From: a virus
IMG/VR virus record: IMGVR_UViG_3300044613_001691
Location: 1 to 28,102 of that record
DNA length: 28,102 bases
Strand: one strand, 5' to 3'
Made by a program: the position numbers and the translations under genes. The notes beneath the pieces were generated by a model. The model did no database searches. It was given only the letters and a program-made list of their open reading frames with translations, and was not told the DNA's origin. Shown piece after piece: positions 1 to 6,308 of the stretch; positions within the stretch are counted from its first letter, which is position 1; each line of letters begins with the position of its first letter.

Positions 1-739
1 GGTGCCCCAGGTGAAGCCGACCGGCTCCCGCCTTCTCCATCTCGACGTGCGTCGCCCCGCTGCGGCGGAGGAACTTCGACGTTCCGCCGATGCCGATCGA
101 GTCGATCAGCACACGCATCCACCGCATCGCCATCCGGCGACCGCAGGCCCAGCCGAGAATCCGCCCGTCGGGTGATTTCGCGAGCATCGCGTCGATCGCC
201 GTCAGGCACGCCGGGGTGAGCGGTCGCGTGAGCGGGTCGCCCGTCTTCGACTGCACCCACGCAAGGGCATCGTCGCGGAGGTTGTCGCGCGTGAACGCCA
301 TGCAATCGCCGAAGCGGCTGCCCGTCTCGTAGCAGACGAGCACCCAGCAACGAAGGAAGAGCCCGAGATCCGCACCGCTGCGGAGCCGCTTGCCGTCGTG
401 TGCCTTCGTCGCCTCGAGCAGCTTCTTCAGTTCTGGCACCGTCCATGCCTTCGTCGGGCGGCGGCGGATCTTGATCCGCAGGATGCCACGCGGGGCGTGA
501 TCGACCACGCCGGCGTCGTACGCCCAACGCCAGAGTGAGAGCAGGATCGTGCGTTCGCTCCTGGCCGTCGTGCTCTCCACGATCTCCGCCCGGGCTCGGA
601 GGTGCCGGTTCAGATCGTCAGCCGTGACGAGCCCCGCACGCGAGGCCACCTTCGCGACATTGCGTTCATAGGTAACTGAGACGCGACGCTGGGCGAGATA
701 GAGCGGCGCGAGGTCGGAAAATGTTTTCGGTGTTTTCAT
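1..739 (-). CDS. Tyrosine recombinase (phage integrase), C-terminus cut by window edge
   Basis: The frame is open from an ATG at 739 to the left edge (246 codons). Residues ~1-90 look like an SAM-like core-binding domain and ~95 onward like the catalytic domain. Visible box residues are Arg142 in ETGSRFGD, Lys165 in QSKTGDP, the LRRSGATH block with Arg225, and HLGH ending at 246. The position before LRR usually held by His is Lys here (KFLRR). The nucleophilic Tyr would lie beyond the edge. GGAGGGGAG lies about 10 nt before the ATG, inside the end of the upstream gene 4 nt away, so it is the last visible gene of the early operon. It would catalyse site-specific integration or excision. It is clearly different in sequence from the recombinase at 5412-6308. 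Confidence 0.93.
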   Translation of the reverse strand, partial: MKTPKTFSDLAPLYLAQRRVSVTYERNVAKVASRAGLVTADDLNRHLRARAEIVESTTARSERTILLSLWRWAYDAGVVDHAPRGILRIKIRRRPTKAWTVPELKKLLEATKAHDGKRLRSGADLGLFLRCWVLVCYETGSRFGDCMAFTRDNLRDDALAWVQSKTGDPLTRPLTPACLTAIDAMLAKSPDGRILGWACGRRMAMRWMRVLIDSIGIGGTSKFLRRSGATHVEMEKAGAGRLHLGH

Positions 740-3388: not shown

Positions 3389-3673
3389 TTAGAAGGGCCG
3401 GAAACTGTCGATGTGTGCGGCGATCACTTCCTGCCCGCCACCGATCAAGTGGCAGCGGACGAGGTAAAAGTCACCGTCTTGGGCCTCGATCACGTAGCCG
3501 CGGCGGGGCTCGCCGAGTTCGTCAGTGAACTCCACGTAGTCGCCGACCGCGTGGGTGTCGATGAGGCGACCGGCTCGCATGGTGGTCGTGGGCGGCGTCA
3601 GCGGGCGGCCGTAGAAGTCATTCATCGCCGCGGCGGCGGCGGCGTACTCAGCGGCGTGGGGATCAGCGATCAT
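3389..3673 (-). CDS. Hypothetical early protein, 94 aa, possible small beta-barrel
   Basis: Starts MIADPHAAEY, followed by an Ala-rich helix. The C-terminal half (VGDYVEFTDELG, RRGYVIEAQDGDFYLVRC, GGGQEVIAAHID) alternates like an SH3/KOW-type small beta-barrel, but I do not recognise a family. The start at 3673 follows AAAAGGA by about 9 nt; the longer frame to 3757 would run through a good promoter at 3730-3757. It has its own promoter and sits before the Sak4-like gene, so it is a likely early gene. Confidence 0.7.
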   Translation of the reverse strand: MIADPHAAEYAAAAAAMNDFYGRPLTPPTTTMRAGRLIDTHAVGDYVEFTDELGEPRRGYVIEAQDGDFYLVRCHLIGGGQEVIAAHIDSFRPF

Positions 3674-3729: not shown

Positions 3730-3757
3730 AATGTATCGGGAGTGCGGGGGGTGTCAA
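3730..3757 (-). promoter_or_regulatory. Sigma70-type promoter for the 94-aa early gene
   Basis: On the minus strand TTGACA (3757-3752), a 16-nt spacer and TACATT (3735-3730) match a sigma70 promoter. Transcription would start near 3723, about 50 nt before the ATG at 3673. It shares the TTGAC-16-TAC layout with the promoters at 4832-4859 and 5237-5264. Confidence 0.6.
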
Positions 3758-3785
3758 GCATTTCCAGCAAGAAAATTTGACGCTT

Positions 3786-3801
3786 GAAAAGCAGGCTTTT
3801 C
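3786..3801. repeat. Perfect 7-bp inverted repeat in early leader
   Basis: GAAAAGC, AG, GCTTTTC. A possible protein-binding palindrome or small hairpin. The right half with flank (CAGGCTTTTCGC at 3792-3803, then ATCAG at 3808-3812) recurs at 4885-4896 with ATCAG at 4902-4906, next to the second copy of the promoter repeat. Confidence 0.55.
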
Positions 3802-3832
3802 GCTCGCATCAGTGGCGGCAACGCAACATAAG

Positions 3833-3857
3833 GTAGCAGTATCGCAACTATTGTCAA
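3833..3857. repeat. Promoter/operator repeat module, copy 1
   Basis: GTAGCAGTATCGCAACTA, two variable bases, then GTCAA; 23 of 25 positions equal copy 2 at 4835-4859. On the minus strand it contains TTGACA (3857-3852) with a poor -10 (TACCTT, 3835-3830), so it may be mainly an operator. An extra CGCAAC lies just beside it at 3822-3827. It overlaps the stop of the 47-aa gene. Confidence 0.7.
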
Positions 3858-3997
3858 CCAAAAATCTGCGCGGCGAGGCGGATGCTCCAGTCGATGCCGG
3901 CCGCGATGTTCTGTGCGAGTTCCGAGTCGGTGCCGAGCTCCTGGCCGACACGAACCCAGATGAGCGTCTCGAGCAGGCGGTTCCATACGCGTTTCAT
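3854..3997 (-). CDS. Small hypothetical protein, 47 aa
   Basis: A 47-residue frame starting MKRVWNRLLETLIWVRVG and ending AAQIFG. The only strong signal is translational: GGAGGGAC lies about 8 nt before the ATG, directly after the stop of the Prim-Pol gene (19 nt gap). The peptide is amphipathic with an N-terminal Trp-rich helix; I recognise no family. Its stop lies within the operator repeat. Confidence 0.6.
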   Translation of the reverse strand: MKRVWNRLLETLIWVRVGQELGTDSELAQNIAAGIDWSIRLAAQIFG

Positions 3998-4015
3998 TGA
4001 CAGTCCCTCCATGAG

Positions 4016-4504
4016 TTAGGCGATGCCGAGAGCGGGCAGGGTGATCGTGGCAGGGCCGATCTGCTGCGGGCTCACGAGCCACGTGTAGGCTCGCCCGCTG
4101 GGGTGAAGGCTGGGCGGCAGCACGCTCTGGGCAGGCTTGCCACCGATGCGAATTTCGGCTCCGCCGATTTTCTTCCAGCCCCACGGCGGCAGCGGACCTT
4201 CTAGGCGAAACAGCCGGTGCTCGCCGCGACCGCTGGCCCAGGTCGGCGTCTCAATGTCGAGGAGCCCAAGGCGGGCGAGGTGGTCGCGGCCCGCCTCATC
4301 GTCATACTCCACGTCGATGATGTTCGACGAGCCGCAGAGCAGCCCGATGTTGTAGCCCTCGTGCAGCCAACCAGCGATCACGTCGGCGATCGTGGTGGCG
4401 AGTGTGTTCCAAGCGTTGCCGAGCGGTCGCTTGTCGTGCTTGGCAACCCGCACCACGGCCGCGCCGTGCTCAAGCAGTGCCAACATGTCGTGATCCAGAG
4501 TCAT
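4016..4504 (-). CDS. Stand-alone primase-polymerase (Prim-Pol) domain protein, 162 aa
   Basis: Matches the N-terminal half of bifunctional DNA primase/polymerase proteins (PF09250 type). Seen in order: NIGLLCG then IIDVEYDDEAG with the acidic metal-binding residues near 64-70, SGRGEHRLFR (91-100), and a third block IRIGGKPAQSVLPPSLHPSG (119-138). Full phage primases of this type usually carry a helicase or extra domain and exceed 250 aa, so this is a minimal version with no attached helicase. AGGAG about 8 nt before the ATG at 4504 sets the start; the frame could extend to 4570 but lacks a site. It would synthesise primers or short DNA in the early module. Confidence 0.82.
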   Translation of the reverse strand: MTLDHDMLALLEHGAAVVRVAKHDKRPLGNAWNTLATTIADVIAGWLHEGYNIGLLCGSSNIIDVEYDDEAGRDHLARLGLLDIETPTWASGRGEHRLFRLEGPLPPWGWKKIGGAEIRIGGKPAQSVLPPSLHPSGRAYTWLVSPQQIGPATITLPALGIA

Positions 4505-4582
4505 GGTCGAATCTCCTGTGTGTGAAAGTGCCACCCGTTTCGCGGCTGTCGGCTGGCCGGGTGGCCCCACCGTGATCGGTTG

Positions 4583-4780
4583 TCAGGCTGCGGCTTCGAG
4601 GGCTTGGCAGAGGGCGATGAACTTGCCCGACTGCATGCGGGCTTCGGCGATCTTCATGCAGGCGAAGAACACCGTGTCGGCTTCGGGGCGGAAGTCGTTC
4701 ATCAGTCCGCACATCACCTCGGTGATCTGCTCGTCGGTCATGGCTTCGATGCGGGCGGTGAGGGTTGCGGTGGCGTTCAT
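4583..4780 (-). CDS. Hypothetical early protein, 65 aa
   Basis: Starts MNATATLTARIEAMTDEQIT and is almost wholly helical, with no known motif. The start is supported by GGGAGA about 8 nt upstream and by a promoter at 4832-4859 giving a leader of about 45 nt; the in-frame extension to 4849 would begin inside that promoter. It is the first gene of the transcript that continues into the Prim-Pol gene 78 nt downstream. Confidence 0.7.
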   Translation of the reverse strand: MNATATLTARIEAMTDEQITEVMCGLMNDFRPEADTVFFACMKIAEARMQSGKFIALCQALEAAA

Positions 4781-4831
4781 CGTTTCGTCTCCCGGTTCGC
4801 GGCTGCGAGTCTCAATCGCTCGCACACCCAC

Positions 4832-4859
4832 ATAGTAGCAGTATCGCAACTACGGTCAA
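4832..4859 (-). promoter_or_regulatory. Promoter with operator repeat (copy 2)
   Basis: On the minus strand TTGACC (4859-4854), a 16-nt spacer and TACTAT (4837-4832). The spacer holds the 18-bp repeat GTAGCAGTATCGCAACTA (4835-4852, plus strand) shared exactly with 3833-3850. A regulator binding this repeat would cover the -10/-35 region. Expected start is near 4825, before the 65-aa gene. Confidence 0.65.
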
Positions 4860-4863
4860 GGGG

Positions 4864-4906
4864 ACTTGAAAGATTTTCTAGAAACAGGCTTTTCGCCCGA
4901 GAATCA
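4864..4906. repeat. Second copy of the CAGGCTTTTCGC...ATCAG module
   Basis: CTTGAAA at 4865-4871, CAGGCTTTTCGC at 4885-4896 and ATCAG at 4902-4906 repeat elements of 3783-3812. Here they lie on the opposite side of the promoter repeat from copy 1, as if the two modules had been shuffled. The last three bases contain the stop of the helix-turn-helix gene. Confidence 0.5.
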
Positions 4907-5230
4907 GCGGCTTTTCTTCCGCTTGGCGGCAGGCCGCTTTTTGGCCGCCGGTGCCTTCCTGGCTGCCCTGGCAGGGGCGTGGATCGCCGCCCTGGTCGAG
5001 AGCTTCTCTCTGAGGGCTTGAGCCGACGCCACGCTCACCATCCACGCGCGACCGTTGACGAGCCAGCCCTCCAGCCGCCCGCCTGTCGTGCGGTCGGAAG
5101 TGGGCTTCTTCTTCTCGTCGCGAGGAAGGTGCTCGAGTAGATCGCGCCGGATGTACTGCTCGCTGCAGCCGGCGATTTTCGCCGCCTTCGGCACCGATAC
5201 CCACTCGTCTTGAACAGCCATTGCGATCAT
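4904..5230 (-). CDS. Helix-turn-helix DNA-binding protein with basic C-terminal tail
   Basis: A 108-aa protein. Residues ~9-45 (VSVPKAAKIAGCSEQYIRRDL) form a MerR/excisionase-type helix-turn-helix. Residues ~85-108 are Lys/Arg/Ala-rich (RKAPAAKKRPAAKRKKS), like a histone H1 or nucleoid-protein tail that would bind DNA non-specifically. It is transcribed away from the integrase at 5412, so it may be an excisionase or the regulator of the early promoters. The promoter at 5237-5264 places the transcript start close to the ATG at 5230, with no Shine-Dalgarno, so translation may be leaderless. A second ATG at 5221 is the alternative start. Confidence 0.75.
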   Translation of the reverse strand: MIAMAVQDEWVSVPKAAKIAGCSEQYIRRDLLEHLPRDEKKKPTSDRTTGGRLEGWLVNGRAWMVSVASAQALREKLSTRAAIHAPARAARKAPAAKKRPAAKRKKSR

Positions 5231-5236
5231 GCCCCT

Positions 5237-5264
5237 ATCGTAATTGCGAAACCGCAACAGTCAA
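5237..5264 (-). promoter_or_regulatory. Promoter with palindromic operator upstream of the HTH gene
   Basis: On the minus strand TTGACT (5264-5259), a 16-nt spacer and TACGAT (5242-5237). Inside the spacer is a perfect inverted repeat, TTGCG-AAAC-CGCAA (5244-5257). Its CGCAAC half-site is shared with the repeat modules at 3833 and 4835. Candidate autoregulatory operator. Confidence 0.65.
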
Positions 5265-5411
5265 ACCGCTGCCGCCCGCACGAAACACGATTTCTTGCCA
5301 GCCGAATACCGCTCGCCGTAGGATGACTACTGAACGGAATCGGACTGGAGACGATGGGGACTCACGCTTGTACAGTATGGCATGATGCCGACACCAAAAA
5401 CGGAGGCAATC
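5265..5411. other. Divergent intergenic region before the integrase
   Basis: No gene is visible between the helix-turn-helix promoter and the integrase. A weak extended -10-like TGTACAGTAT lies near 5371-5380, but I see no clear -35 for the integrase. An attachment site could lie here or past the left edge; nothing in the bases proves it. Confidence 0.35.
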
Positions 5412-6308
5412 ATGGACCGTCTGATTGACATTCTGAACGACGATTATTCGCTGCTTCGCGGGCTGAAGCCGAAGGCTCACCTACAGTTTCGGCTTTCCAT
5501 CGAGCAGTTCCGCGACCACCTGGGCAGAGACCCGGTCGTGTCCGATCTGACGGGCGTGGCGGTGCAGCGATTTCTCTCGGCAAGAAAAGCCAAGGTGTCG
5601 ATCGCCACGACCGTCAAGGATCGCACGCATATCTGTGCCCTCTGGAATCACCTGTTCCGCCTGCGGCGAGTCGATGTCGCCCCTGCGGCAGTGCTGCCGC
5701 CCATGCGGGCTCCCAAACGCGTCCCGAAGGCGTACAAGGCCGACGAGGTGTCAGCCGTGATTCGGGCGGCGCTGGCCTATCCAGGGGGCGTAGCGGGCAA
5801 GCCAGCGAATATCTGGCACGCCTCGCTGATCCGGGCGGCTTTTGAGACGGCAGAACGCGTAGGAGCTCTGCTCGCCGTCGAGTGGCGGGATGTCGATCTC
5901 GACGAGCGGGTGATCCTCCTGCGGGCAGAGAACCGCAAGGGCGGGTATCGCGACCTTTTGCGGCCGATCTCGTCTGAAACGGCCTCCTGGCTGCGTCAGT
6001 TGCGGCGTGGATCGCCAGACAAGGCGAAGGTCTGGGAGTGGGATCGCGTTCCGGGGCACCTCTGGTATCACCTCCGGGCAATCTGCAAGCGTGCCGGCGT
6101 GCCAGCCCGCGGCTACCACGGGTTCCGCAAGTCCGCCGCGTCTTACCTTGCCGCCGCCGGCGGGCTTGGGGAAGCCGCCTCCGCCCTCGGGCACGCGTCT
6201 CCCACCACGACCCAGGTTCACTACATCGACCCGACGATCGCCAAGCCGACGCGGACGTTCGTGGATATGCTGCCGCGCATCGAACTTGAAGATCCGCCGT
6301 CTCAATGA
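5412..6308 (+). CDS. int: Tyrosine recombinase (phage integrase), complete
   Basis: A 298-aa integrase and the only clear plus-strand gene. The N-terminal ~90 residues are a helical core-binding domain. The catalytic domain shows Arg149 in ETAERVGALL, Lys176 in NRKGGYRD, His236 and Arg239 in HGFRKS, His261 in ALGHASP and the nucleophile Tyr271 in HYIDP, so the active site is complete. CGGAGG about 5 nt before the ATG at 5412 supports this start over ATGs at 5382/5385. It is divergent from the helix-turn-helix gene and convergent with the late gene cluster, the usual position of a lysogeny integrase. Confidence 0.95.
   Translation: MDRLIDILNDDYSLLRGLKPKAHLQFRLSIEQFRDHLGRDPVVSDLTGVAVQRFLSARKAKVSIATTVKDRTHICALWNHLFRLRRVDVAPAAVLPPMRAPKRVPKAYKADEVSAVIRAALAYPGGVAGKPANIWHASLIRAAFETAERVGALLAVEWRDVDLDERVILLRAENRKGGYRDLLRPISSETASWLRQLRRGSPDKAKVWEWDRVPGHLWYHLRAICKRAGVPARGYHGFRKSAASYLAAAGGLGEAASALGHASPTTTQVHYIDPTIAKPTRTFVDMLPRIELEDPPSQ

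Follow-up and report, generated by a model that had tools for sequence, protein, structure and literature searches.

A putative autoregulated early repressor co-varying with predicted operators in the promoter spacers of uncultured phages

Genes, promoters and repeats of the early region

The window analysed here is the entire IMG/VR record IMGVR_UViG_3300044613_001691 (28,102 bases), which probably represents a fragment of a larger phage genome, as its relatives reach 46-49 kb. The early region (Table 1) is read from the minus strand in the order P1 and the gene of a helix-turn-helix (HTH) protein, followed by P2 and the genes for the 65-aa protein, the PrimPol protein and the 48-aa protein, followed by P3 and P4 and the genes for the 94-aa protein, the Sak4-like ATPase and further proteins. 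At the end of this last gene run a second tyrosine recombinase gene is located (window 1-739, minus strand), which is truncated by the left edge of the window; both tyrosine recombinases are present in several relatives.

Table 1. Features of the early region, given in window coordinates
Feature	Position	Strand	Basis
Sak4-like AAA ATPase, PF13479	2337..3275	-	domain match
94-aa protein, first gene of the P3/P4 operon	3389..3673	-	also found in relatives
P4, second promoter of the 94-aa/Sak4 operon, TTGACA-16-TACATT, no operator	3730..3757	-	position kept in relatives
O3b, degraded second predicted operator GTTGCGTTGCCGCCAC, just past the P3 -10 box, 21 bp from O3a	3812..3827 (about)	-	sequence
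P3, operator-bearing promoter of the 94-aa/Sak4 operon, TTGACA-16-TACCTT, predicted start ~3823	3830..3857	-	comparison with relatives
O3a, predicted operator in the P3 spacer, TAGTTGCGATACTGCTAC	3833..3850	-	repeat search, relatives
48-aa protein, last gene of the P2 operon	3854..4000	-	also found in relatives
PrimPol domain protein, PF09250, E 3.4e-23	4016..4504	-	domain match
65-aa protein, first gene of the P2 operon	4583..4780	-	also found in relatives
5'-terminal RNA hairpin of the predicted P2 transcript, UGCGAG-CGAUUGAGA-CUCGCA	4804..4824	-	covariation, folding
P2, promoter of the 65-aa/PrimPol early operon, TTGACC-16-TACTAT, predicted start ~4825	4832..4859	-	consensus scan, relatives
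O2, predicted operator in the P2 spacer, TAGTTGCGATACTGCTACTA	4833..4852	-	repeat search, relatives
HTH regulator, 108 aa, excisionase/MerR-like winged-helix fold, basic C-terminal tail	4904..5230	-	profile, fold model, operator covariation
P1, promoter of the HTH gene, TTGACT-16-TACGAT, predicted start 5230 (A of the ATG)	5237..5264	-	consensus scan, relatives
O1, predicted operator in the P1 spacer, TTGCGGTTTCGCAA, perfect inverted repeat TTGCG-N4-CGCAA	5244..5257	-	sequence
Tyrosine recombinase, divergent from the HTH gene	5382..6308	+	domain match, relatives

A consensus scan identified four promoter-like sites within 9.2 kb where 1.0 was expected, and these sites, P1 to P4, are predicted sigma-70-like promoters of the minus strand. 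Two reused modules (3833-3857 and 4835-4859) had been pointed out in the first-pass annotation and are indeed there: the two 25-mers are 92% identical and share the 18-mer GTAGCAGTATCGCAACTA, which has exact copies at 3833-3850 and 4835-4852 but no other match in the window with up to three mismatches allowed, with 0.01 matches expected by chance at this tolerance and two copies found in none of 100 shuffles. Likewise, the third site described there shows the same layout together with its palindrome (5264-5237), and the fourth (3757-3730) shares the layout only, the TTGCG motif being located in the spacers of P1, P2 and P3 but absent from P4. Judged from the letters, the repeats are genuine DNA sites that form part of three promoters. 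Counterparts of the degraded operator O3b are better preserved in two relatives (L003 and L006), where TGTTGCGTTGCTGCTAC follows the P3 -10 box. Some 9-20 nt upstream of the P2 -35 box (window about 4868-4879) an A-tract/T-tract element (AAAAATCTTTTC-like) is found, which resembles an UP element and was recognised by a loose regular expression in 60 of 106 loci.

The distance between the end of the P1 -10 box and the start codon of the HTH gene is 6 or 7 nt in 83 of 84 relatives, meaning that transcription should start at or next to the A of the ATG; the HTH mRNA is hence probably leaderless and would be translated as such.

Co-variation of the operators with the HTH protein

Had the repeats been absent from relatives carrying the same genes, the idea of a common regulator would have been weakened, and here the outcome depends on the HTH protein: where the same HTH is encoded the repeats are kept, but where it differs they are swapped for another operator. 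Among loci fetched by the HTH protein, the P2 and P3 sites are kept with 0-3 changes wherever the contig covers them, and P1 is unchanged in position and more variable in sequence. When whole records were searched with up to three mismatches allowed, the A-type operator was found in 8 of 8 records with an A-type HTH versus 0 of 9 with other HTH types. Each of the eight carries two or three A-type operators, exclusively at these promoters.

The reverse case is provided by L013, whose PrimPol and 94-aa proteins are 98% and 97% identical to those of the window and in which the 65-aa and 48-aa genes are also present, while its HTH protein shares only ~25% identity with that of the window. Here, the same three promoters carry operators of the CCTACCGATATCGG type (CCTATCGCTGTCGGTAGG at P1, CCTACCGATATCGGTA at P2 and CCTACCGACATCGGGC at P3), and P4 resides at the same place without an operator. 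Further operator classes are ACTACCGATAGCCTA (L020, L036), ACTGACGATAGCCTA (L025) and GGTTCCGATATCGGTA (L019). In some subfamilies or classes the operators are asymmetric and lack a clear palindrome, which leaves the mode of operator binding uncertain. In two loci (L166 and L174) the HTH gene and P1 are present, P2 and the hairpin described below were not found, and the downstream sequence looks by eye like the beginning of a gene for a DNA methyltransferase.

The sites, their positions and the co-variation of all three operators with the HTH protein are thus read directly from the compared sequences. As the loci are related to each other, the permutation p-values are optimistic and overstate independence, and within this limit it was found that (i) P2 and P3 are more similar to each other within a locus than in permuted pairings (0 of 20,000 permutations with 11 loci, 3 of 20,000 with seven subfamilies), (ii) P1 and P2 gave 206 matches over 21 HTH clusters as compared to 158.4 +/- 6.6 upon permutation (equalled in 0 of 20,000; clusters were defined at 70% identity, and the result also holds with 41 and with 10 clusters) and (iii) in partial Mantel tests with 16 loci, operator similarity followed HTH identity at P2 (r 0.84, p 0.0002) and P3 (r 0.88, p 0.0002), but PrimPol at neither of them (-0.08, p 0.77 and -0.02, p 0.55, respectively). 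The comparison with L013 stands apart from these p-values. Since PrimPol is located between the HTH gene and P3, simple linkage does not explain the P3 result, and linkage alone was rejected for P3, as PrimPol fails to predict the P3 operator.

It was also considered that a host regulator binds the sites, or that the repeats are duplicated promoter DNA without any regulator. Phage promoters could be bound by a host factor, and an exact 18-bp repeat common to P2 and P3 is what a duplication gives; yet the operator class tracks the phage HTH and not the relatedness of a neighbouring gene, in L013, with its nearly identical PrimPol, the HTH and all three operators differ jointly from those of the window, and across at least 21 HTH clusters the promoter positions are kept while the operator sequences change. 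As the operator-HTH co-variation is independent of PrimPol relatedness, both variants were rejected and are regarded as highly improbable. The regulon suggested initially, comprising the HTH gene, the 65-aa/PrimPol operon and the 94-aa/Sak4 operon with the HTH protein at 4904-5230 as regulator, is strongly supported by the regulator-operator co-variation across relatives, and a single regulon under this protein can be considered well supported at the sequence level.

The HTH protein, further regulators and the P2 leader hairpin

A profile built from 17 HTH proteins matched Pukovnik Xis (4j2n, E 1.2e-5), and the match of the same profile to Tn916 Xis was below significance. For the AlphaFold model (pLDDT 75) the top fold match was again 4j2n, followed by RacA and MerR-family proteins, all with E > 0.1. 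The PHROG matches of the HTH protein are mainly excisionases and DNA-binding proteins, Pfam HTH_17 was matched by 9 of the 17 members, and in the HTH protein the domain search did not find HTH_3, the domain that a CI-type repressor would carry. It is hence described as a small winged-helix protein of the excisionase/MerR fold, with a structure model of moderate confidence and weak fold matches.

The MerR-superfamily fold and the location of the operators between the -35 and -10 boxes would fit a protein that activates P1 to P3 in the manner of MerR, i.e., by reshaping the promoter from its spacer. MerR-type activation uses over-long promoter spacers of 19-20 nt, but across 84 loci the spacers measure 16-17 nt at P1 and 16-18 nt at P2, with -35 and -10 hexamers near consensus; MerR-type activation is disfavoured by these spacers and was judged improbable. 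Repression is favoured over activation, as the sites reside inside normal 16-18-nt spacers of near-consensus promoters, which suggests that the HTH protein may act by steric repression.

In the first-pass annotation no CI-like repressor had been seen, which stands in so far as the domain search identified no HTH_3 repressor in the window record and 12 relatives; however, 9 of these 13 records (G002, G003, G004, G006, G008-G010, G012 and G015) carry a LexA-type DNA-binding domain, which makes a second regulator likely in the part of the genome outside the window. The main hits are frames of 86-166 aa and hence too short for full LexA. By eye, positions 6232-6870 of L037 are similar to LexA-type proteins as well.

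A LexA-type protein could serve as the outside repressor which governs lysogeny if the HTH protein were mainly a recombination directionality factor (RDF; Xis/Cox/Apl type) for the divergent recombinase and an early repressor in addition. Pukovnik Xis being the best match in both sequence and fold, the several excisionases among the PHROG matches and the tyrosine recombinase gene lying divergent to that of the HTH protein in all loci that include 800 nt or more of upstream sequence (86 of 86) are consistent with this, as is the mentioned occurrence of LexA-type domains. Small winged-HTH proteins of excisionase fold are what is expected for RDFs, and the HTH protein is one, its fold E-values being weak; some proteins of this fold act chiefly in recombination, and with Apl there is a precedent for one protein doing both jobs (PMC7498355). 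RDF sites, however, are direct-repeat arrays one helical turn apart (PMC7498355), whereas the sites found here are single and reside in spacers. Their inverted symmetry is enriched (reached by 0 of 1000 shuffles at P2 and 2 of 1000 at P1), the 10-11-bp direct-repeat signal, scored in the promoters only, was reached by 259 of 1000 shuffles at P1 and 36 of 1000 at P2, and no further operators were found elsewhere in the A-type records. A role mainly as RDF is therefore possible but rather unlikely, and autoregulated repression of P1 to P3 is the reading followed below.

The predicted P2 transcript would start with a hairpin. Within 26 hairpin-bearing leaders, 98.4% of the stem cells pair and the loop hardly varies. 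Double-changed cells amount to 39, whereas shuffles gave 15.2 +/- 3.4 and slid controls no more than 10. RNA folding predicts one more C-G pair on the inside of the stem, a bulged A and a loop of six bases. As the loop is conserved, the stem covaries and G-U pairs occur, the hairpin is suggested to be an RNA element rather than a DNA site, for which no Rfam match was found. An exact-pattern scan identified at least 120 viral stretches; among the matches listed, promoter-like sequence (by regular expression) ends 2-18 nt upstream of the hairpin in 95 of 106 distinct cases and an HTH gene resides upstream in 99 of 118. When loci were chosen by the HTH alone, P2 was present in 28 of 30 and the hairpin in 20 of 30, hence it is common but not obligatory. 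A 5' hairpin of this kind, not matched in Rfam and found in more than 100 viral contigs among the matches listed, points to a possible RNA-level control of the early operon.

Beside the main one, extra hairpin-bearing leaders were observed in L036 (4678-4742), L022 (1677-1738) and L019 (about 1140-1205). Those of L036 and L022 each follow another promoter of the same operator class, and the regulon may thus have more members in some phages. In L043, L059, L105, L148 and L143 the hairpin follows promoters whose operators are of a different kind (e.g., CTAGACGCTCGTATAG), and upstream of it the search gave no HTH match; possibly, another type of regulator occupies the HTH slot there.

Database searches were carried out for host and relatives. 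Scanning GTDB genomes with PrimPol gave no match and hence neither a prophage nor a cultured relative, and scanning GTDB with the left-end recombinase gave one 6.9-kb MAG contig only, which reads as a phage fragment, so that no host is claimed. L037 (RFPR01000114.1), a MAG contig labelled Proteobacteria bacterium, shares 96% DNA identity over 347 bp with the window and reads as a phage fragment continuing past the window's left end, its binning and host being uncertain. A search of INPHARED gave nothing for the L036 HTH, a single weak match for PrimPol and only weak partial ones for the divergent recombinase, and the many Sak4 matches are uninformative on the control region.

Proposed early control circuit and known systems

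Taken as a whole, the locus is best explained by an autoregulated HTH repressor of P1 to P3 which co-evolves with its predicted operators into specificity classes, an explanation that is held with good confidence. Most likely, the HTH protein would turn off expression of its own gene as well as of the early genes for replication and recombination. It is suggested to bind the operators between the -35 and -10 boxes of P1, P2 and P3, whereby RNA polymerase would be blocked, and so to limit its own level via P1, the primase operon via P2 and the recombination operon via P3, which has two operators, the second of them at the start site. P4 would escape it and supply the P3/P4 operon regardless. 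Like phage immunity modules, the regulator and its operators would split jointly into a large number of specificities; judged by sequence co-variation, predicted cognate operators overlap the early promoters, and both partners have diversified together (21 HTH clusters, partial Mantel tests).

The phage carries integrase-type recombinases, and the unusual lysogeny switch considered initially is no more than plausible. That the HTH protein would keep a prophage silent was given a little less than an even chance. A still wider reading, in which a widespread group of uncultured temperate phages employs an excisionase-fold protein, translated from leaderless mRNA, as main lysogeny repressor and possibly as excisionase too, and in which the novel hairpin, bound by a phage or host factor, adds a further control of the early operon, is doubtful. 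For uncultured phages, a candidate early control circuit becomes readable from sequence, with a regulator, three operator regions and numerous specificities (21 HTH clusters at 70% identity). If excisionase-fold proteins act as early repressors through single operators embedded in promoters, this would broaden the Cox/Apl concept and could provide naturally orthogonal pairs of repressor and operator; metagenomic phages might also be assigned to immunity groups by their operator class.

The literature was searched for leaderless repressors of planctomycete phages and for immunity repressors that resemble excisionases, which yielded nothing beyond Apl, XisF and cluster A. Among phage immunity repressors, lambdoid CI is one with co-evolving sites. 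In cluster A mycobacteriophages, repressors and sites diverge together (PMC6550527), and as in these the repressor and its sites are here split jointly into specificity classes among otherwise similar phages. Cluster A repressors, however, use many stoperators genome-wide as compared to three operator regions here, and the DNA-binding domain found here is excisionase/MerR-like and not HTH_3. Apl (phage 186) and Cox (P2-like phages) are RDFs which in addition act as repressors of early and lysogenic promoters (PMC7498355); like them, the HTH protein is a small phage protein of the excisionase kind that is encoded in the control region and would repress early promoters. The sites of Apl are direct repeats of six bp, arrayed at distances of 10-11 bp between face-to-face promoters and at attP, whereas single, often inverted-repeat sites inside the spacers of three separate promoters are found here, and unlike for Apl/Cox there is no separate CI gene between recombinase and HTH. 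XisF of Pf prophages is an excisionase doubling as transcription regulator of replication and the lysis-lysogeny switch (PMC7379572); XisF4 activates replication and faces the separate repressor gene pf4r, whereas here repression is suggested and no such partner is adjacent. The closest solved relative of the HTH protein, by profile and as top fold match, is Pukovnik Xis (PDB 4j2n), an excisionase acting on head-to-tail repeats (PMC7498355).
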